From: Clostridia bacterium
GTDB taxonomy: Bacteria; Bacillota; Clostridia; Oscillospirales; CAG-272
DNA: 35,102 nt
Direction of reading: 5' to 3'
Assembly: GCA_017472305.1 (NCBI GenBank)
Contig: JAFUQP010000035.1
Coordinates: 1 to 35,102, forward strand
Position 1 is the first letter of the stretch. Each line of letters begins with the position of its first letter. Positions 6,089 through 24,997 of this stretch are shown here, piece by piece. A program made the translations under genes and the position numbers. The notes under the pieces were generated by a model. The model made no database searches. It had not been told where the DNA came from and worked only from the letters and a program-made list of their open reading frames with translations.

Positions 6089-6104
6089 TGTTTCACGTGA
6101 AACA
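6089..6104. promoter_or_regulatory. parS: parS site 1 (perfect)
   Basis: TGTTTCACGTGAAACA, identical to the Bacillota parS consensus bound by ParB/Spo0J. It is the first of four copies within 201 bp directly upstream of parA. Confidence 0.97.
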
Positions 6105-6148
6105 AGGGGGATTTAAGGCGGTGAGGCTCCAAACGATATCGAAACCAA

Positions 6149-6164
6149 TGTTTCACGTGAAACA
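6149..6164. promoter_or_regulatory. parS: parS site 2 (perfect)
   Basis: TGTTTCACGTGAAACA, again identical to the consensus, starting exactly 60 bp after site 1. It serves as a ParB loading site for the CTP-dependent sliding clamp. Confidence 0.97.
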
Positions 6165-6213
6165 AAAATGTGTTTCTAGTGGCGATAGTGCCAAAAGGCA
6201 ACTCTAAAAGCAA

Positions 6214-6229
6214 TGTTTCACGTGAAAAA
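6214..6229. promoter_or_regulatory. parS: parS site 3 (one mismatch)
   Basis: TGTTTCACGTGAAAAA differs from the consensus at position 15 (C to A). It starts 65 bp after site 2. It is probably a weaker ParB site. Confidence 0.9.
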
Positions 6230-6273
6230 ACGATTTAAAACATTCTGAACATTAACCACGGTCAAACAGCCAA

Positions 6274-6289
6274 CGTTTCACGTGAAACA
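6274..6289. promoter_or_regulatory. parS: parS site 4 (one mismatch)
   Basis: CGTTTCACGTGAAACA differs from the consensus at position 1 only (T to C). It starts 60 bp after site 3 and ends 28 bp before the -35 of the parA promoter, so ParB spreading could repress parA. Confidence 0.92.
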
Positions 6290-6560: not shown

Positions 6561-7325
6561 ATGGGAAAAATAGTATGCTTTTCTAATCAGAAGGGCGGTG
6601 TTGGTAAGACAACCTCTTGCGTCAACATCTCTGCTCAGATTGCAAACAAGGGCAACAAAAAGGTCTTGATGATTGATATGGACCCGCAGGGAAATGCCAC
6701 AAGCGGACTTGGTCTGCCCAAATCGAAGATAAAAAACACGATTTATGACGTTATTATTGGCAGATGTGACGTCAAAGACGCCATTATTAAGACAAAATTC
6801 AAGAATTTATCTGTTGTTCCTGCTAATATCGACCTTGCGGGAGCGGAGCTTGAGCTTTACGACCTCGAGGATACGACAGATTTCGCAAAGCTCGCGCTCG
6901 AGAGCGTTAAGGACGATTACGACTACATATTTATAGACTGCCCACCCTCGCTCGGTATGCTCACCGTCAAGGCACTATCTGTTTCGGACGGCGTTGTGAT
7001 ACCTATGCAGTGCGAATTTTATTCACTTGAGGGTATGTCGCAGCTCTTTAACACCATCAAAAAAATAAGAACTCTCTACAACCCGACTCTACAAATAGTA
7101 GGAATTCTCCTCACAATGTATAACGCAAGGCTCACTTTAACCGGTCAGGTGGTCGCAGAGCTTAAAAAATACTACGCAGACAAGCTCTTCAAGGTTCCGA
7201 TTTCAAGAACTGTCAGAATTTCCGAAGCTCCGGGATACGGCGAGCCAATATGCTACCACGACCCATACGGAAAGGGCTCGCTTGAATATGCTGCCGTCGC
7301 AAAAGAGCTGATGCTAAGAATATAA
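6561..7325 (+). CDS. parA: Chromosome partitioning ATPase ParA (Soj)
   Basis: ParA is a DNA-binding ATPase that forms a nucleoid-bound gradient, is stimulated by ParB, and in spore formers also acts on DnaA. The 254-residue protein has the deviant Walker A box KGGVGKTT (11-18), a Walker A' motif in VLMIDMDPQGN, and a Walker B-like FIDCPPSLG. The family ending with SEAPGYGEPICYHDPYGKG is well kept. Length is normal for Soj. The ATG follows AGAGG by about 8 nt. It lies just downstream of four parS sites, and parB follows after an unusually wide 322-bp gap. Confidence 0.97.
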   Translation: MGKIVCFSNQKGGVGKTTSCVNISAQIANKGNKKVLMIDMDPQGNATSGLGLPKSKIKNTIYDVIIGRCDVKDAIIKTKFKNLSVVPANIDLAGAELELYDLEDTTDFAKLALESVKDDYDYIFIDCPPSLGMLTVKALSVSDGVVIPMQCEFYSLEGMSQLFNTIKKIRTLYNPTLQIVGILLTMYNARLTLTGQVVAELKKYYADKLFKVPISRTVRISEAPGYGEPICYHDPYGKGSLEYAAVAKELMLRI

Positions 7326-7647
7326 GTTTTTACCGATTTACTTATACCAAGACCAGTCCGCAAGCTTTATTTACAATAATATCTTAAAGAACATTATAAA
7401 AGACGGTTACGACAACGTTCTATGTCGGAAGATTATATAAACTCGCTTGCATTAATTACCATTTATTGGTAATTATCAGGTGATTACAAAATTTCTTTTT
7501 GTAAGATTTTGTAGCGCCGACTTTGAGTGAGTTCCCCACCGCAAGTCTTTGTTTTGAACAGATTACAAAGACAAAGACCCATTTTCTTTTAGAATCTTAC
7601 AATAATTTCGGCATTATTCCCCACATTCATACAAAGGAGCAAATGAA
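7326..7647 (+). other. parA-parB intergenic region with hairpins
   Basis: This 322-bp gap separates two genes that are usually adjacent. It holds an ATTACC/GGTAAT hairpin (7456-7474), a TTACAAAA/TTTTGTAA inverted repeat (about 7485-7506) and a GTCTTTGT/ACAAAGAC 8-bp repeat (about 7544-7571). A weak promoter reading TTGCAT, 17 nt, TAATTA overlaps the first hairpin. No coding sequence is convincing. parB may therefore be transcribed separately from parA. Confidence 0.5.
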
Positions 7648-8532
7648 ATGGCAAAGAAAAACAGCGGCCTCGGCAGAGGCCTTGATGCAATATTTCTTGA
7701 CAACGCGCTTATAGAGAGCGAAAACGGCGGCGAGGACAAAATCGCTACGCTTAAGCTTTCACTTATCGACCCGAAGAGCGACCAGCCCAGAAAGTATTTT
7801 GATAAAGAGGCACTCGAGCAGCTCGCCTCGTCGATTCTGGAAAACGGACTTCTTCAGCCCATTCTCGTCAGGGAGTACGGCGACGGAAGATATCAGATAA
7901 TCGCAGGAGAGCGACGCTTCCGCGCCTCAAAGCTTGCAGGGCTATCGGAAATCCCCGCAATCGTGCTTGATAGGGACGACAGAAAGGCGGCAGAGATTGC
8001 CCTTATCGAGAACGTTCAGCGAGAGGACCTCAACCCACTCGAGGAAGCGCTTGGCTATAAGGCACTCGCCGAGGAATACGATATGACACAAGAGGAGCTC
8101 TCCCTTAAGGTCGGCAAGAGCCGCAGCGCGATAGCCAATACCTTAAGACTTCTCGACCTTCCCGACGAGGTGTTAACGCTCGTCGCCTCGAAGGAGCTTT
8201 CGGCAGGTCACGCCAGAACGCTCCTCGGTCTTAAGGAGCGCGACGAAATGATTCTTCTCGCGCAGATGTGCATTGAAAACGACCTCTCGGTAAGAGCTCT
8301 CGAGCTTGAGGTCAAGCGCCTCAACAAGCCGATTAAGGTAACTCCGCCGAAGGAAATCCCCTTTGTCGATTACTTCCGCGAGCTCGAGCTTAAGGTGCAG
8401 TCGCACCTCGGCAGACGCGTAAAAATCGAGGAAAAGGGCAAAAAGAAAACGATAACCCTCACCTATGAGAACAACGAGGACCTCGACGAAATTATCAAGC
8501 TCCTCTGCGGCGACAGCTTCCTCTCGGAGTAA
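7648..8532 (+). CDS. parB: Chromosome partitioning protein ParB (Spo0J)
   Basis: ParB is a parS-specific DNA-binding CTPase that loads at parS, slides along DNA as a clamp and recruits SMC. The 294-residue protein begins with the typical GLGRGLDAIF (7-16), then has the CTP-binding boxes GERRFRA (87-93) and ENVQREDLNPLE (121-132), and a helix-turn-helix region around 145-200 that reads TQEELSLKVGKSRSAIANTLRLL. The C-terminal 45 residues form the dimerisation part. AAAGGAG lies 8 nt before the ATG. All four cognate parS sites in this window lie 1.4-1.6 kb upstream. Confidence 0.97.
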   Translation: MAKKNSGLGRGLDAIFLDNALIESENGGEDKIATLKLSLIDPKSDQPRKYFDKEALEQLASSILENGLLQPILVREYGDGRYQIIAGERRFRASKLAGLSEIPAIVLDRDDRKAAEIALIENVQREDLNPLEEALGYKALAEEYDMTQEELSLKVGKSRSAIANTLRLLDLPDEVLTLVASKELSAGHARTLLGLKERDEMILLAQMCIENDLSVRALELEVKRLNKPIKVTPPKEIPFVDYFRELELKVQSHLGRRVKIEEKGKKKTITLTYENNEDLDEIIKLLCGDSFLSE

Positions 8533-13011: not shown

Positions 13012-13818
13012 TTACTTTCTTCCGAACCAGAGGAAGCCTCTCTTCTTCTTGCCATCGTCCTTTGCGGAGCTTCCTACCTGTACGGTTACAAGCTCGTCAA
13101 GCGAGTTAAGCTCGGGCTCATCCTCCTCATCGTCATCGTCGTCGCCTGCGAAGGAAAGTGCAGATGCTGCTGCGGGTGCGGGCTCTGCCTTAGGTGCTTC
13201 TGCTACAGGTGCTTCCTCTACTACAGGAGCTGCTTCTGCTACGGGTGCTTCCTCTACAACAGGTGCTGCCTCTGCTACAGGTGCTTCCTCTACTACAGGT
13301 GCTGCCTCTGCTACAGGTGCTGCTTCTGCTACAGGCGCTTCCTCGACAACAGGTGCTTCCTCTACAACGGGCGCGGGCTCTGCCTTAGGTGCCTCTTCTA
13401 CTACAGGAGCAGGAGCTGCCTTCTTAGGAGCCTTCTTTTCTGCCTTGGGTTCCTCTGCCTTGGGTGCTTCCTCTACTACGGGAGCAGCCTCTACTGCGGG
13501 AGCTTCAGCTGCAACGGGAGCTGCAACTGCTACAGGCTCTGCCTTGATTTCTGCTGCTACTGCGCCGTCCTCGGTCTTGGGCTTTCTCTTTCTCTTCTTC
13601 TTCTCGGGGCGGGGAACGTCGAATGAGTCGTCAAGAAGGTTGTCAATGGAGATACCGAGAAGCAGCTTCATCTCGAGAAGCTTCGGAACCTCGGGGTAGG
13701 ACTGGCCGCACTCCCACTTGTAGACCGCCTGACGCGATACGCCAACCGCGATAGCGAACTCCTCCTGGGTAAGGCCTTTGGTTTTTCTGAGAATAACGAG
13801 TTTTTCCTTGAATGTCAT
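13012..13818 (-). CDS. XRE-family HTH protein with Ala/Pro/Glu/Val repeat linker
   Basis: Residues 1-65 are a Cro/CI helix-turn-helix domain ([21 protein letters not shown] at 16-36, with helix 3 in [10 protein letters not shown]). A Lys/Arg patch (73-80) is followed by about 130 residues of low complexity made of [12 protein letters not shown] and APKAE units, then a run of Asp/Glu (about 222-236) and a basic aromatic end [12 protein letters not shown]. The repeats are close copies at the DNA level, so length is likely to vary between strains. The HTH is ordinary; the tail suggests a partner- or membrane-binding role, but this is inference. Ribosome binding site AAGGAGG is strong. The gene follows gyrA on the same strand. 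Confidence 0.88.
13190..13510 (-). repeat. Degenerate tandem repeat coding for Ala/Pro/Glu/Val units
   Basis: Copies of a unit close to GCTACAGGTGCTTCCTC recur, giving a 36-bp (12-residue) higher-order unit that spells [12 protein letters not shown]. The best-kept copies lie at about 13200-13390. Such sequence is prone to slippage and to assembly collapse. Confidence 0.85.
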
Positions 13819-16493: not shown

Positions 16494-18437
<1,944 letters not shown>

Positions 18438-18821: not shown

Positions 18822-19908
18822 ACTCTCCACCCCTCACGTCAATAATACAGTCTGCATATCCCATACATTCGTCGGCATCGCAGGAGGTTATTATATACTG
18901 CTTTCCAAATGAGCCTGAGAGAAGATATTTTTTTCTTTTTTCGTCAAGCTCACTCAGCACGTCGTCAAAGAGATATACAGGCTCCTCGCCGAATTTCTCC
19001 TTTATAACCGCACCCTCTGCAAGCTTCATTGAAAGAACAACCGAGCGCTGCTGCCCCTGAGATGCAAAGCTCTTTGCTTCCTTGCCGTTAATATAAATTT
19101 TTATATCCTCTCTGTGAGGACCGAATAGGGTAACACCCGCTGAAATTTCTCTGTCAAGAGAGGACGAGAGAATTTTTTTATATTCCTCGCGTATCTTTTC
19201 TCTGTTATTTGACTCTGTTTGAATATCCGAGTGATATTCAAAGGATAAAGACTCTCTGTCAGAGGAAATCTCCTTCATAATTTTCTCTGCCTCAAGGGAT
19301 ATTTTTTTAAGATACTCTATCCTCATAAGATAAACGTATGAGGCATAATCCGCCATAATCGACGACCAGCTGTCAAGCTCGAGTCTGTCTACAGGCATAC
19401 CCTTCTGCAAAAATTTAAGTATACAGCTTCTTTCGGTCAGAGCCTTCTTATAGTCAGAGTAATATTTTATATAAGATGGCTCACACTGCGATATAGCAAC
19501 GTCAAGAAAGCTTCTTCTTTCCTCAGGTCCACCCTTTACAAGAGAGAGGTTGTCGGGCTGAAAGAGAACCGAGCGGAAGGAGCCTATCATTTCAGCTACC
19601 CTTCCTATCTTATATCCGTTCTTCTTTCTCTGCCTTTCTCTGCCGAAAAGAGAATATTCAAGCCTTCCGTCCCCAAAAGAGTCGGAGTATTCAATAGAAA
19701 GAGAAAATCCCTCTTTTCCAAACCCTACAAGCTCAGAATCCTCTCTTGCCCTGAAGGATTTTCCTCTTGAAAAGAGATATATTCCCTCAATAACGTTGGT
19801 TTTACCCTCTGCGTTGTTGCCGTGAAGAAGATTAACTCCGGGAGAGAATTCTATCTCGCATTTATTAATGTTGCGAAAATCTCTCGCAGAAAATTTCTTT
19901 AAAATCAT
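18799..19908 (-). CDS. recF: DNA replication and repair protein RecF
   Basis: RecF is an SMC-like ATPase that, with RecO and RecR, loads RecA at single-strand gaps. The 369-residue protein (normal length) has Walker A GNNAEGKT (30-37), signature sequence near KSFASQGQQRSVVLSMKLAE and Walker B in PVYLFDDVLSELDEKR. Its ATG overlaps the dnaN stop by 4 nt (ATGA), giving the standard dnaN-recF coupling. Confidence 0.97.
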   Translation of the reverse strand: MILKKFSARDFRNINKCEIEFSPGVNLLHGNNAEGKTNVIEGIYLFSRGKSFRAREDSELVGFGKEGFSLSIEYSDSFGDGRLEYSLFGRERQRKKNGYKIGRVAEMIGSFRSVLFQPDNLSLVKGGPEERRSFLDVAISQCEPSYIKYYSDYKKALTERSCILKFLQKGMPVDRLELDSWSSIMADYASYVYLMRIEYLKKISLEAEKIMKEISSDRESLSFEYHSDIQTESNNREKIREEYKKILSSSLDREISAGVTLFGPHREDIKIYINGKEAKSFASQGQQRSVVLSMKLAEGAVIKEKFGEEPVYLFDDVLSELDEKRKKYLLSGSFGKQYIITSCDADECMGYADCIIDVRGGEYVSSYRK

Positions 19909-21062
19909 TGCTGGTCGTTCATACGAACGGGAAGAATCATATAGAAGTACTTGAACTCGTCGTCAGCCTCAACAGGCTCGATAGTTATAGCCTGAGTTGC
20001 GCTCTTAAGAGAAATCTTTATATTTTCTCCCTCTGCAACCTTCGTGCTGTTAATGAGATAACGGCAGTTGAAGCCTATATCAAGGTCACCGCCCTCGTGA
20101 ACACAGTCCATCTCGTCAAATACCCTGCCGTTAACCGATGCGGAGGTAACCGAGAGCGACTGCTCGTATACGGAAATCTTTACGTAGCTCTTACCGCTTG
20201 ACTTTATTTTTTCCTCTGCAACTATATTAGCTCTCTCAAGAGCATCAAGAAATCTCTCTCTGTCAACGGTAACGAATATATCGTTCTCCTTGGGAATAAT
20301 TCTCTCGTAATCTATGTACTCGCTGTCAATGGTTCTTGTGAAGAATACCGTATCTCCCTTAACTACAATAGCGTGCTTTCTGGAAATGAAGAACTTAACG
20401 TTCTCCTCCTCCCCCTCAGAGAGGCACTTTGAAAGCTCGCCGAGAGCGTGACCGGGAATAATAAAGGAGTAGGAAAGCTCACCGCTTGCCGCAAGGGAGC
20501 TTATATCGCACTTGACCGAGCAGCGCGAGAGAGTATAGCTGTCACAGGAAACAACCTCCATCTCACCCTCGCGGATTTTGAAGAACGCGCCGCAGAGCAT
20601 AGGTCTGTTATCCTGCTCGGCAATAGAGTGAGAAACCTTACCTATAATCATCTTAAGCTTCTCGGAGGAAATCTCAAATCCTCTGTCGGACTGAAGGTCG
20701 GGAAGGTTGGGGAAATCCTCGCCTCTCATAGCGAACATAGAGAAGGAAACCTTGTCGCAGGAGATAGTGCAGCTTAATTTATCATTGATATCAACCGTAA
20801 CCTCGTCGTCGGGAAGAACTCTTACTATCTGTAAAAATCTCTGGGCGTTAAGAATAAATCTTCCTTCTCTTACTATTTCGGTAGGAATAAAGGTTGTTCT
20901 GTATCCCTTATTCATATCGTAGGTAGAAAATCTTATTTCGCCCGAGGGAAGGGTTTCAATAAGAACACCCTCTATTGAGGTGATGGTATTTTTATTAGAA
21001 ACAGTTCCCATAGCAGGAGTTAGCTTATTTATGAGAGTTGACTTATGTACCGTGAATTTCAT
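19905..21062 (-). CDS. dnaN: DNA polymerase III beta subunit (sliding clamp)
   Basis: DnaN is the ring-shaped dimeric clamp that gives the replicative polymerase its processivity. The 385-residue protein shows the three-fold repeat of clamp domains: it begins MKFTVHKSTLINKLTPAM, has the central stretch SVSHSIAEQDNRPMLCGAFF, and ends DDEFKYFYMILPVRM, where the usual MPIRL-like C-terminal groove residues are MILPVRM. AAGGAA lies 5-6 nt before the ATG. The gap to dnaA holds the putative oriC. Confidence 0.97.
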   Translation of the reverse strand: MKFTVHKSTLINKLTPAMGTVSNKNTITSIEGVLIETLPSGEIRFSTYDMNKGYRTTFIPTEIVREGRFILNAQRFLQIVRVLPDDEVTVDINDKLSCTISCDKVSFSMFAMRGEDFPNLPDLQSDRGFEISSEKLKMIIGKVSHSIAEQDNRPMLCGAFFKIREGEMEVVSCDSYTLSRCSVKCDISSLAASGELSYSFIIPGHALGELSKCLSEGEEENVKFFISRKHAIVVKGDTVFFTRTIDSEYIDYERIIPKENDIFVTVDRERFLDALERANIVAEEKIKSSGKSYVKISVYEQSLSVTSASVNGRVFDEMDCVHEGGDLDIGFNCRYLINSTKVAEGENIKISLKSATQAITIEPVEADDEFKYFYMILPVRMNDQQ

Positions 21063-21350
21063 ATAATTCCTTTCCTTCGGTTTTTCGCTCTTGATTTTGG
21101 CGAAGCCCTTAATTAAATCATTCTTTTAATAGTTAATTATAATAATAGTAGTGTCTGTTGAAAGTGTTGAAAAGTCGAAATTTCCTTTAAATATTTCTGT
21201 TTTCAAGGCTTTTTTATCCACATTTTACTGTTGAAAGAAGCTTTGAAAAAAATACCTGAAGTTTTCAAAATAAATTCAAAAGAATATAAACATCTTTTAA
21301 ACAGCATTTTTTCAACATTTCAACACCGAAATTTGGAAAACTTTTTCTCT
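21063..21350. other. oriC: Putative oriC (dnaA-dnaN intergenic region)
   Basis: This 288-bp gap has an AT-rich stretch (about 21109-21150), then TAA-TAA-TAG-TAG (21140-21151), four bases, and two abutting 9-mers TGTTGAAAG (21156-21164) and TGTTGAAAA (21165-21173). A third copy lies at 21229-21236 and two inverted copies at 21310-21317 and 21318-21325. One perfect DnaA box, TTATCCACA, is at 21214-21222. The order of triplets followed by paired boxes is that of the DnaA-trio unwinding element known from B. subtilis. The TGTTGAAA copies would be diverged DnaA boxes (two mismatches to TGTGGATAA), which is inference. Confidence 0.75.
21214..21222. promoter_or_regulatory. Perfect DnaA box
   Basis: TTATCCACA, the consensus DnaA-binding 9-mer, inside the dnaA-dnaN gap; it anchors the oriC assignment. 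Confidence 0.9.
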
Positions 21351-22748
21351 TTAATTATTCTTTATATCCGAAATAAGCTTGTTAAGCTCGCTCTCGTAGT
21401 TCTTTACGGTCTTTATATTTAAAAGAATTTTATCTATAGAGGAGCTGACTGTCGAGTGGTCTCTGCCGAAAATTGCTCCTATTTCCTTTAACGTTAGTCC
21501 CGTAAGAGTTTTTATAATGTATATTGAGAGGTGACGTGCCTTTGAAATACTGTCTGTCCTCTTTTTGGATTTTATATCCTCGGTAGGTACGCCGTATTTT
21601 TTTGATATGGCAGCAATTATTCTCTCAACCATAACGTCGTTCGGAATGTTTCCCGGGTCAACCTTTGAGATAACGTCATCTATGAGAGTTTTGGTAACCT
21701 CTTCGCCGCTTAAGGAATTTATAGCCTCTATCTTCTTTAAGACTCCCTCTATCTGCCTTATGTTATTATTGAGTCTCTCTGCCATATAGTCGATAAGCTC
21801 GTTGGAAATCTTAAGTCCCATATCAGACGACTTTTTTCTTATAATAGCGGTTCTGAGCTCGTAGGAGGGCGGCTGAACGTCTGCAAGAAGTCCTCCCTCA
21901 AATCTTGTACGGAGTCTGTCAGAAAGAGGCTTTATCTCATTCGGGGGACGGTCAGAGGTCAAAATAATCTGCTTTTCGCTCTCGTAGAGTGCCGAGAAGG
22001 TATGGAAGAACTCCTCCTGCATTGCCTCTTTACCGGCTATAAACTGAATATCGTCGATAAGAAGAACGTCTGCTGAGCGATACTTTTCCTTAAAGGGGGC
22101 GGTCAGATGATTTGAAATTGCGTCTACCATCTCGTTTATAAAGTTCTCGCTCTTCTTATAAATGATGTTAAGTCCCGGGTGGTTTTTCCTCATATAATCC
22201 ATAACGGCGTAGAGAAGGTGAGTTTTACCGAGTCCAGACTGACCGTATATGAAAAGGGGATTATAATAGCAGGGGTCCTTCGCAACCGCAAGACAGGCAG
22301 CCTTTGCAAACTTATTTGACGAGCCCTCAATGAAGTTATCGAAGGTGTAATCGTCGAGAATAGAATGCTTCTCGGTATCCTTCTCGCGGAGAATATTGTC
22401 TATCTCGCGCTCCTTCTTCTCACTTTCCTCAATCTTCTTTGAGGAGAGGTCAACGACAACAGAGGGCTCCTCCTTTTCCTTATTGAAGCTTTCTGTTCCG
22501 AGAGAATTAATCTCAATAAAGACGTTAAAGCCTATTATTTCTGTGAGAGCCTCTTCTATCTGGCCGATATATTTGGTTAATAAAATTTTTCTTTTAAGAG
22601 CTGTGGGAGTTGAAAAGATTGCCCTATCCTCTGTCAGCGAGGTAAGTGTAAACTCACCGAACCATAAATCAAAGCTTATATCCGACAGAGCCGTTTTCTT
22701 GCGGAGTGATGACTTAAGCTCCTCGGAGATAGATGAGAGTTCGTCCAT
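21351..22748 (-). CDS. dnaA: Chromosomal replication initiator DnaA
   Basis: DnaA is the AAA+ initiator that binds DnaA boxes and opens oriC. The 465-residue protein has domain I (1-85), a charged linker (86-130), domain III with Walker A GQSGLGKTH (169-177) and Walker B LLIDDIQF, and domain IV ending in the DnaA signature FGRDHSTVSSSIDKI. AAAGGA lies 9 nt before the ATG. The promoter is at 22812-22840. It is upstream of dnaN on the same strand, as usual, but the gene upstream of it is spoVAE, not rpmH. Confidence 0.98.
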   Translation of the reverse strand: MDELSSISEELKSSLRKKTALSDISFDLWFGEFTLTSLTEDRAIFSTPTALKRKILLTKYIGQIEEALTEIIGFNVFIEINSLGTESFNKEKEEPSVVVDLSSKKIEESEKKEREIDNILREKDTEKHSILDDYTFDNFIEGSSNKFAKAACLAVAKDPCYYNPLFIYGQSGLGKTHLLYAVMDYMRKNHPGLNIIYKKSENFINEMVDAISNHLTAPFKEKYRSADVLLIDDIQFIAGKEAMQEEFFHTFSALYESEKQIILTSDRPPNEIKPLSDRLRTRFEGGLLADVQPPSYELRTAIIRKKSSDMGLKISNELIDYMAERLNNNIRQIEGVLKKIEAINSLSGEEVTKTLIDDVISKVDPGNIPNDVMVERIIAAISKKYGVPTEDIKSKKRTDSISKARHLSIYIIKTLTGLTLKEIGAIFGRDHSTVSSSIDKILLNIKTVKNYESELNKLISDIKNN

Positions 22749-22895: not shown

Positions 22896-23267
22896 TTACA
22901 TTCTTTTTGAGCGGGTTTTGAATAAAATAGCGAAAATAAAACCGAGCAGAAGTGCCGCGGTTATACCGCTTGACGAGGCGGAAAGTCCTCCCGTCAGTAT
23001 TCCTATAGCGCCCTTTTCGTCTACCGCGCTCCTTACACCCTTGCCGATTGCAGCGCCAAAGCCGGTAAGAGGGACGGATATTCCGGCGCCGAACATATTA
23101 TAAAGAGGCTCGTAGACACCTATAGCGTAAAGAAGCACGCCAAGACATACCGTAAATACTAAAATTCTTGCGGGGGTTACTGCCGTCAAATCAATAAAAA
23201 GCTGCGCTATAAAAGAAATAAGTCCGCCGAAAACAAATACGGGAAGAAGAGTATAAATAATATCCAT
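22896..23267 (-). CDS. spoVAE: Stage V sporulation protein AE
   Basis: SpoVAE is a small inner-membrane protein of the channel that moves Ca2+-dipicolinic acid into the forespore and out at germination. The 123-residue protein has about four TM segments and the family phrase VPLTGFGAAIGKG (near 65-77) shared with SpoVAC. AAAAGGAG precedes the ATG. It follows spoVAD by 65 bp and is the last gene of the spoVACDE operon; dnaA comes next on the same strand with its own promoter. Confidence 0.95.
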   Translation of the reverse strand: MDIIYTLLPVFVFGGLISFIAQLFIDLTAVTPARILVFTVCLGVLLYAIGVYEPLYNMFGAGISVPLTGFGAAIGKGVRSAVDEKGAIGILTGGLSASSSGITAALLLGFIFAILFKTRSKRM

Positions 23268-23332
23268 AAAGGCTCCTTTTGAAAAAATTCTATAAAATAT
23301 AGAGTAATTTTTTCTGTAACGAAAAGCAATTA

Positions 23333-24355
23333 TTAATCGGGAGAGGTTAATTTTATTATAGGGGCAATTCCGAAGATATTCTGTCCTTGAAGAAGGCTTT
23401 GCGGGCTCATAAGAGCGCCTGTTGAGAGAAAGAGAATTTTATTTATTTTTTTAGACTCCAATAGAGGTAAAAAGTGAGATGCAAGGACAGAAGCCGACGT
23501 TCCGCAGCCCGAGGCGCCGCTGTGAGCGTCCTGAATTTCTCTGTCATAGAGAAGAAGTCCGCAGTCGGTATGAATATTTTCAGCCCCGGGAAGCTTCTCG
23601 CGTAAAATATCCTTCAGGATATCCGAGCCAACCTGACCCAGGTCCCCTGTGACAATATAGTCATAATCTCTGGGCCTCTCCTCACTCTCTGAAAAATAGT
23701 CAAGTATGCTTTCTGCCGCGGCAAATGCCATAGCTCCGCCCATATTGGAGCCGTCGGCGGTTGCGCCGTCTACTATTTTACCCGGCATAAAGGCTGAAAT
23801 CTTAGGCTTTTCTGACCACGGAGAATCAATTCCCGAGCGTCTGCCCAGAATAAACGCGCCTGCGGCAGTAGAGGTCCACTGCGCGCTTCTTGCCCTCTGT
23901 CCTCCGTACTCTATCGGCATTCTGAATTGTCTTTCTGCGGCGGAATTATGAGAGGTTGTGAGGGCTGCGCCGATTTTCAGTGCTTCAGAGGATTCCATAA
24001 ATGCCGAAAGAGTCATAAGCGACTCGGTGCAGGTTGAGCAGGCGCCGTAAACCCCGACGAAGGGAATACCGAAGCCCGAAAGTCCTATCGACGAGGCAAC
24101 ACACTGATTTTGTAAATCCCCTGCGACAAGAAGGTCTATATCACTGTGTGAGAGCTTCATTTTTGTAAGGGCGGTGTTGAGGGCAACCTTGCCCATCTCA
24201 CTCTCGGCAAGCTCCCAGGTGTCCTGACCGAAGCGGTCGGTCGGGTCGGAGAAGTCAAATTTTTCACCGAGGGGCCCTCGCCTCTCCTCATATCCGCCGA
24301 CTGCGGCGTAGGAAATAAATCTTATATCTGATTTTAAGACGGTTATTTTTTTCAT
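23333..24355 (-). CDS. spoVAD: Stage V sporulation protein AD
   Basis: SpoVAD is a thiolase-fold protein that binds dipicolinic acid and works with SpoVAC and SpoVAE in its transport. From the ATG at 24355 the product has 340 residues, close to the B. subtilis protein (338). Family phrases include GPLGEKFDFSDP, YGACSTCTESL, YDYIVTGDLGQVGSDI and HSGASGCGTSASVLASHFLPLL. The frame stays open to 24394, but that stretch holds a GTCGCC/GGCGAC hairpin (24371-24387) and does not resemble SpoVAD, so the inner ATG is preferred; an ATG at 24367 is the alternative. Confidence 0.95.
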   Translation of the reverse strand: MKKITVLKSDIRFISYAAVGGYEERRGPLGEKFDFSDPTDRFGQDTWELAESEMGKVALNTALTKMKLSHSDIDLLVAGDLQNQCVASSIGLSGFGIPFVGVYGACSTCTESLMTLSAFMESSEALKIGAALTTSHNSAAERQFRMPIEYGGQRARSAQWTSTAAGAFILGRRSGIDSPWSEKPKISAFMPGKIVDGATADGSNMGGAMAFAAAESILDYFSESEERPRDYDYIVTGDLGQVGSDILKDILREKLPGAENIHTDCGLLLYDREIQDAHSGASGCGTSASVLASHFLPLLESKKINKILFLSTGALMSPQSLLQGQNIFGIAPIIKLTSPD

Positions 24356-24370
24356 ATAAATTTCCATTCC

Positions 24371-24387
24371 GTCGCCTAAAAGGCGAC
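24371..24387. promoter_or_regulatory. Hairpin in the spoVAC-spoVAD junction
   Basis: GTCGCC (24371-24376), TAAAA loop, GGCGAC (24382-24387), 15 bp before the spoVAD start. It may set the relative translation of the two genes or act as an mRNA stabiliser. Confidence 0.5.
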
Positions 24388-24436
24388 CGCACAATAATGT
24401 TTTTAAAGAATACTAAAAAAGGATAAGGGTTGACAT

Positions 24437-24895
24437 TTAAAAGAAAGAGCCTCTTTGAATAAGAGTGTAGACGTAATAAATTATACCGTAGAGGACTCCC
24501 GAGAGAATTCCGTAGAGAATTACGGGACCCGCGACGTTGAAAATCTTAACGCCGATACCCGTGACGAGTCCCTCGCTTCGGGAGTCCATAGCCTCGCTTG
24601 TTACCGCGTTTGCAAATCCGGTAACAGGAACGAGAGTGCCCGCGCCTGAGTATCTTGCGATATTATCAAAAAATCCAAGAGCGGTAACGAGCGCACCGAG
24701 GAAAATAAGAGATACGGTAACGAGCATTCCGGACTTTTCAGAGTCAAATCCGATATAGGAATAAAGCATATAGAGAAGCTCACCGAGCGTGCATATAGCA
24801 CCGCCGAACAGGAAGGCAAGAGTACAGTCCCTCAATACTCTTGAGTGCGGCGTGTGCTTTTTTATCAGCTTCTTTTTATAGGATGTTTCCATCAT
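24437..24895 (-). CDS. spoVAC: Stage V sporulation protein AC
   Basis: SpoVAC is a polytopic membrane protein of the SpoVA channel; the B. subtilis protein behaves as a mechanosensitive channel in germination. The 152-residue product has about four TM segments and the conserved phrases GAGTLVPVTGFANAVTSEAMDSRSEG and GIGVKIFNVAGPVILYG. The ATG at 24895 is preferred over the in-frame GTG at 24901, which is itself part of the AGAGGTG ribosome binding site. It is the first gene of the operon; no convincing sigma-G promoter could be fixed upstream. Confidence 0.95.
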   Translation of the reverse strand: MMETSYKKKLIKKHTPHSRVLRDCTLAFLFGGAICTLGELLYMLYSYIGFDSEKSGMLVTVSLIFLGALVTALGFFDNIARYSGAGTLVPVTGFANAVTSEAMDSRSEGLVTGIGVKIFNVAGPVILYGILSGVLYGIIYYVYTLIQRGSFF

Positions 24896-24997
24896 AAACA
24901 CCTCTTTTTGAAAATTATAGTTTACATTTTAGAGTGAAACTGCCGTGTTTATTTCTTATTCTGCCACAGAAAAGAAAAAATATTACCAAGATAAAAC

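Follow-up and report, generated by a model that had tools for sequence, protein, structure and literature searches.

A putative BUS-type origin between dnaA and dnaN

The 288-bp gap between dnaA and dnaN in this uncultured gut Clostridia bacterium is very probably the chromosome origin, with positions 21134-21173 serving as a basal unwinding system (BUS) that would work by docking and base capture. Judged from its sequence and that of its relatives, the gap is a BUS-type oriC, an element of a known kind with lineage-specific DnaA boxes. Our direct observations are of its anatomy, its conservation, its 9-9-4-(3×6) layout, the box consensus of the family and the conserved base-capture residues of DnaA. 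The main points of interest are the six-trio length and the co-variation of a DnaA residue with a trio base in relatives, not the window itself (by the window we mean the whole 35,102-nucleotide stretch that was analysed, to which all coordinates refer).

The gap (21063-21350, minus strand) has a GC content of 26.7%. On one side is dnaA (21351-22748, minus strand, 465 aa), identified by alignment and by Pfam matches to Bac_DnaA (6e-64) and Bac_DnaA_C (5e-23), and on the other is dnaN, the sliding clamp gene (19905-21062, minus strand, 385 aa), with Pfam matches to DNA_pol3_beta, _2 and _3. The gene order is dnaA-gap-dnaN-recF-gyrB, then gyrA, with recF called from an SMC_N match and its position and gyrA called from the ORF by eye; parA/parB and four parS-like sites are also present in the window. 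Cumulative GC skew is lowest at ∼21-25 kb, as calculated over this 35-kb contig, which is one of 42 in the assembly.

Read in the dnaA direction, the core of the gap is TTTTCAACA-CTTTCAACA-GACA-CTA CTA TTA TTA TAA TTA. Box 1, the trio-distal box (21165-21173, minus strand; TGTTGAAAA on the plus strand), directly abuts the trio-proximal box 2 (21156-21164, minus strand; TGTTGAAAG on the plus strand), which is followed by the 4-nt spacer GACA (21152-21155, minus strand; TGTC on the plus strand) and by six in-phase trios (21134-21151, minus strand). On the plus strand, the putative bound strand, these trios read 3'-GAT-GAT-AAT-AAT-ATT-AAT-5'. A stretch of 68% AT, defined by composition and assigned to neither strand, extends from the trios to dnaN (21063-21133) and may be the DNA that is opened further. 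On the other side of the box pair, the gap contains a perfect consensus DnaA box, TTATCCACA (21214-21222, plus strand), a DnaA-box-like site, TTTCAACA (21229-21236, minus strand; TGTTGAAA on the plus strand), and two abutting copies of TTTCAACA in the opposite orientation (21310-21317 and 21318-21325, both plus strand), which together form TTTCAACATTTCAACA at 21310-21325. The coordinates given for these elements in a first-pass annotation, including TAATAATAGTAG at 21140-21151, all proved exact. The four triplets claimed there are present, but six can be read in phase in the dnaA orientation, of which the fifth (TAA) is off-pattern.

Binding, unwinding, strand and direction are modelled on work in B. 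subtilis. By this analogy, domain IV would anchor two DnaA molecules on TTTTCAACA and CTTTCAACA, which abut, and more DnaA-ATP would extend from the boxes across the spacer and capture trio bases, over six trios, on the bound plus strand. This would open the AT-rich region on the dnaN side and lead to helicase loading; an auxiliary or regulatory role would fall to the sites at 21214, 21229, 21310 and 21318.

A BUS has been described as a pair of DnaA boxes in the same orientation, followed by a short spacer and DnaA-trios of the 3'-GAT/AAT-5' type (PMC8287927). The search rule given in the same source takes a box pair in which the better box has at most two mismatches from the standard motif and the other at most four, with at least three trios of the form 3'-NAN-5' located at most 16 bp from a box (PMC8287927). 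In the window, the two boxes share the minus strand; TTTTCAACA differs from TTATCCACA at two positions and CTTTCAACA, as counted by inspection, at three. Trios 1-4 and 6 fit the trio form, and the array is separated from box 2 by 4 nt and from box 1 by 13 nt. At the positions of the base-capture residues (N187, R202, E228, I190, I193 or alike), the window DnaA has N187, K202, E228, V190 and I193; it also has E183 and the arginine finger R264.

We take the B. subtilis BUS (DnaA-box#6/#7 and the DnaA-trios) to be located in the dnaA-dnaN gap as well. The window resembles it in having two co-oriented boxes, a short spacer, six 3'-GAT-5'-type trios and AT-rich DNA beyond, and in a DnaA whose base-capture residues are kept or conservatively changed (R202 to Lys, I190 to Val). 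It differs from the B. subtilis BUS in that its boxes are TTTTCAACA and CTTTCAACA and abut directly, and in that P423, T435 and H439 of domain IV are changed.

The box-box-spacer-trio module is conserved in relatives

Searches for DnaA gave matches in 58 of 60 genomes of the genus (66 of 69 in a second search) and in 132 of 146 genomes of the family, of which the family matches were fetched in part. Together with eight outside loci, taken from named records (L004-L011), these made up 189 loci, 177 of them with a recognisable dnaN; the 12 loci without a dnaN match were excluded, as were L002 and L003, whose DnaA is identical to that of L083 and L088. The module was modelled as box-box-4 nt-three trios, with five-fold cross-validation and a threshold at the 99% level of shuffled sequences. 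We find that the order and spacing expected of a BUS are conserved, since 159 of the 177 held-out gaps exceed the threshold, compared to 5 of 177 when the reverse strand is scored. The window itself reaches 33.3, and the largest null score is 17.0. With fixed spacing 18 of the 177 gaps fall below the threshold, and when a 3-nt spacer is allowed 14 do, some of them without a recognisable module. If spacers of either 3 or 4 nt are allowed, the module is found in 163 gaps, with 150 using 4 nt and 13 using 3 nt. The usual spacer in the family is NCCC, and the window's GACA is less GC-rich. One genome (G026) supplied two loci, L142 and L162, the latter without the module.

The idea that the gap is oriC-like DNA, with DnaA-trios and paired DnaA boxes side by side and arranged as in B. 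subtilis, had been put forward in the first-pass annotation, where a lack of conservation of the triplets or 9-mers in close relatives was named as a finding that would speak against it. This comparison was run, and because the module is kept in relatives, the objection falls away and the idea stands.

The scoring model contains only three trios, leaving trios 4-6 outside it. In the 159 gaps, the frequency of C as the first base is 0.91, 0.74, 0.72, 0.77, 0.75 and 0.75 at trios 1-6, and 0.33, 0.15 and 0.12 at the three positions beyond, and the frequency of CTA falls from 0.37 at trio 6 to 0.08 at trio 7. In the window's close clade (DnaA identity of at least 54.5%, 32 loci with the module), CTA occupies trio 6 in 21 loci and CC comes next in 23; the window is not among these. 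In the B. subtilis complex described by cryo-EM, six trios engage seven DnaA molecules (PMC10721633), and the sharp stop at six trios across the 159 gaps fits such a complex.

The octamer TTTCAACA, which was picked after the fact, occurs in 5 copies in the gap. First-order shuffling of the gap, repeated 5000 times, gave no copy in 4740 cases, one in 249, two in 11 and three or more in none; some octamer was present at least five times in 1019 of the 5000 shuffles (20%), because the DNA of the gap is AT-rich. In the whole window there are 6 copies versus 0.89 expected, a number reached in none of 100 shuffles, and the sole site beyond the gap is at 16508. Conservation in relatives is stronger evidence than this count and, as a matter of sequence statistics, settles the question of whether the sites exceed chance. 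In the 177 dnaA-dnaN gaps (81.5 kb), TTTCCACA occurs 361 times versus 6.0 expected and TTTCAACA occurs 190 times versus 12.6 expected.

The TTTCAACA sites could in principle be bound by some other regulator that controls dnaA or dnaN, in which case the origin would be located elsewhere. Considered as 9-mers, the TTTCAACA sites are indeed two or three mismatches from the DnaA box consensus (counted partly by inspection), but the same slot in the modules of relatives, 4 (sometimes 3) nt ahead of the trios, is occupied by TTTTCCACA, TTATCCACA or TTTTCAACA, and the density of TTT(C/T)(C/A)ACA is 7.70 per kb in the 177 gaps compared to 0.63 per kb upstream of dnaA (181 loci), 12-fold lower. We consider a separate regulator most improbable.

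The difference in density also bears on a bipartite organization similar to that of C. difficile, in which the gap would supply only the unwinding half of the origin and a further cluster of boxes, upstream of dnaA, would be required. The report on C. difficile describes in vitro unwinding that needed both regions (PMC7561715). The window and C. difficile oriC2 are alike in coming from Clostridia, in having a trio downstream of the boxes and in the use of the region after dnaA; unlike the window, C. difficile is described as having the E. coli contact residues, TTWTNCACA boxes and an upstream oriC1 (PMC7561715). Upstream of dnaA in the window, 600 bp of sequence contain 0 sites of the form TTT(C/T)(C/A)ACA, compared to 5 in the gap, although more degenerate boxes would escape this count. 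A bipartite organization is thus rather improbable, and we prefer the gap as a BUS-type oriC.

The family uses its own DnaA box spelling

The ordinary DnaA box of the family is TTTTC(C/A)ACA, with the A6 and C6 spellings occurring side by side, and thus the boxes of the window, which had at first been called non-canonical, are a lineage spelling. For origin prediction in the family, TTTTC(C/A)ACA should serve as the search motif. Our literature search found no paper that pairs TTTTCAACA with ‘DnaA box’. The Epsilonproteobacterial boxes (core TTCAC) are a similar case of a lineage-specific box and have been proposed to go with domain IV changes at 435 and 438-439; in that account position 5 is a strict T, whereas in the window's family positions 3 (T) and 6 (C/A) depart from the consensus (PMC5043019).

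The residues reported to contact the box in E. coli are R399, P423, D433, H434, T435 and H439 (PMC7561715). Based on our own alignment of these positions, the set is not fully kept in the window DnaA, which has R, K, D, H, S and S (P423 to K, T435 to S and H439 to S). Its domain IV helix-turn-helix reads ...TLKEIGAIFGRDHSTVSSSIDK, with one residue fewer before GRDH than in B. subtilis, and the same shortening is found in the solved DnaA chain 3PVP. Across the 189 loci, the residue at 439 is S 111 times, A 35 times and H twice.

A tree-corrected scan of A6 versus C6 over 399 columns found no domain IV contact residue that tracks the box change. The best of the 14 watched domain IV columns, V437, ranks 6 of 399 (LR 7.6), H439 ranks 33 and P423 ranks 115; the top column, 35 (LR 16.0), is outside domain IV. 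In an uncorrected comparison of A6 and C6, B. subtilis positions 404 and 403 (E. coli P423) had ranked 3 and 11 of 376, but with the tree they fall to ranks 72 and 115 of 399, and we therefore dropped the claim that box and helix co-evolve. Of the earlier proposal of a lineage-specific DnaA recognition sequence, the box spelling is indeed lineage-specific, but co-evolution of DnaA with A6 does not go beyond a suggestion in the tree-corrected scan. The A3 spelling was also more frequent with DnaA proteins that keep H439 (15 of 35 boxes from 18 genomes versus 92 of 599 from 199 genomes), a comparison that ignores the tree and was not used.

Possible other spellings were noted in two groups of loci. 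In three species labelled as the same genus as the window (L165, L166 and L169), DnaA has Cys432, Asn or Arg433 and Asn436 (GCNHSNV, GCNHANV and SCRHSNV), and the gaps contain no TCCACA or TCAACA; L166 has five copies of TTGACA. These loci possibly use a further box spelling. In the named Clostridia records (L004-L011), DnaA has GGRHYSTI, TTTTAACA occurs 9 times in 7 of the 8 gaps versus 0.97 expected, and the family box is rare.

The trio middle base varies with DnaA residue 187

In several Clostridia lineages the trio code has probably evolved with DnaA: Asn187 is replaced by Asp, Glu, Ala, Ser, Thr, Gln or Ile, and on the bound strand the middle base of the trio appears relaxed, or switched from A to T, with Glu228 and the 3-bp spacing kept. 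This pattern suggests that one DnaA residue and one trio base change together in evolution; we do not claim the co-variation as unpublished. The window is on the ordinary side, with Asn187 and CTA/TTA trios.

How DnaA selects the DNA that is to be opened is a long-standing question. According to the cryo-EM work, the choice made by B. subtilis DnaA comes down to Asn187 and one base (PMC10721633). The trio middle A is reported to be held by Asn187 and Glu183; C is tolerated in its place, T and G are less effective, and a severe growth defect results when residue 187 is alanine (PMC10721633). When CTA becomes CAA on the dnaA strand, T replaces the middle A of the bound strand, and our counts of middle-A trios refer to the dnaA strand.

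A nine-species subclade of the window's genus has Asp (5), Glu (2) or Ala (2) at residue 187, and its arrays hold in-phase CAA, for example TTA TAA CAA CAA CAA TTA in L092 and CTA CAA CAA TAA TAA CAA in L100; the weakest, L095, has one CAA. When the scan ignored the middle base, at least three middle-A trios were found in 8 of 14 non-N187 loci versus 1 of 148 N187 loci (Fisher p 2.6e-9, ignoring the tree and leaving out L206, which has no residue 187). The eight include L183 (Thr187, CAA CAA CAA CTA CAA CAA), the one genome of another genus of the family.

The order sample consisted of 60 dnaA loci from other families, two of which (L293 and L294) were chosen for a CAA pattern beside dnaA and eight as family f19. 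Sampling was guided by outcome for L293 and L294 and for the rest of f19, which was fetched after two f19 cases and was followed by family f20. Ten of the 12 f19 genomes have a DnaA match. All five Ser187 species, from one genus, carry CAA-type arrays (CAA CAA CCA in L317 and two or three consecutive CAA in the others), as does the single Ile187 species; the four Asn187 species are not CAA-type, though two of these score below the threshold. In f20 (30 loci, from 58 genomes with a match; 15 of the 30 are in the final set), the Gln187 species have middle-A-rich arrays, and the six Ile187 loci divide into three with CTA runs and three without a recognisable module. A CAA-trio pattern scan of 197 order genomes was too unspecific, with a match somewhere in 100 of them; at least two of its cases adjoin dnaA, L293 and L294, and both are N187, which counts against simple co-variation.

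After 15 loci with identical DnaA were dropped, the final set held 254 gaps; 37 of these lacked a module or residue 187, and 217 were kept. At least three middle-A trios are present in 16 of 27 non-N187 loci versus 3 of 190 N187 loci, guided loci included, and one of the three N187 exceptions, L216, looks misregistered. Glu228, the contact of the first trio base, is present in all 217 loci and hence in all 27 non-N187 loci; residue 183 is acidic in 27 of 27 non-N187 loci.

The association is also found when the tree is considered. In a phylogenetic regression over 202 loci, column 187 ranks first of 406 DnaA columns (LR 56.4; next, 13.5). The middle base is A at 0.48 and T at 0.48 in non-N187 loci, compared to T at 0.82 and A at 0.09 in N187 loci, and the first base is C at 0.78 in both groups. 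Without the guided loci it is first both in the 160 loci of the genus and family searches (LR 35.5; next, 11.2) and in the 186 loci obtained when the order sample is added (LR 44.0; next, 13.7). Parsimony gives 11 changes for each trait, residue 187 and the middle base, over the 217 loci (guided loci included). A model of dependent traits beats one of independent traits (LR 25.7, 4 df, p ∼4e-5), as fitted with a simple optimiser and with the guided loci included.

Shared ancestry or base drift could produce such an association without a change of read-out. The nine-species subclade supplies much of the residue-187 signal, and when both it and the six f19 cases are left out column 187 drops to rank 2 of 410 (LR 23.5), behind column 46 (25.4). 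Column 187 also ranks 4 of 399 (LR 7.9) for A6 in the boxes, where no read-out is expected, a hint of a general drift toward A. Exceptions occur in both directions, with CAA arrays in N187 genomes (L141, L293 and, in part, L294) and mostly CTA arrays in non-N187 loci (L156, L168, L187, L244, L308 and f20 species with I187). However, column 187 keeps rank 1 if only the subclade (LR 46.8) or only the f19 cases (37.7) are removed, as it does in the sets chosen regardless of outcome, and its signal is weak or absent for the first trio base (rank 133 for A, 385 for C), the third base (rank 43, LR 3.4) and the following 9 nt (rank 45, LR 3.2). We regard ancestry or drift as unlikely to be the explanation, and prefer evolution of the trio code with DnaA.

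The simplest account of this evolution is permissive, in that loss of Asn187 would leave the middle base free to be A or T. By our own chemical reasoning, the carboxylate of Asp187 or Glu187 might accept a hydrogen bond from thymine N3-H and so favour T; the other residues may simply no longer check for adenine. Natural lineages with joint changes of residue and base would provide independent evidence for the Asn187 contact, and the natural 187/trio pairs are ready-made material for swap experiments. If the co-variation is true, published trio searches that require a middle A could miss such origins, and it might explain some origins in which trio searches find nothing.

Other features of the window

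Four parS-like sites are located at 6089-6289, just upstream of parA/parB (6561-8532). Two are perfect matches to TGTTTCACGTGAAACA, which we take to be the parS consensus, and two have one mismatch; the spacing is near-regular, at 60-65 bp, and 0.07 such sites are expected. In many Firmicutes rpmH is in place upstream of dnaA; here the region directly upstream of dnaA (22896-24901) has matches to SpoVAC/SpoVAEB, SpoVAD and again SpoVAC/SpoVAEB. Finally, positions 13012-13818 encode an HTH_3 protein, the second half of which is a long repeat run.
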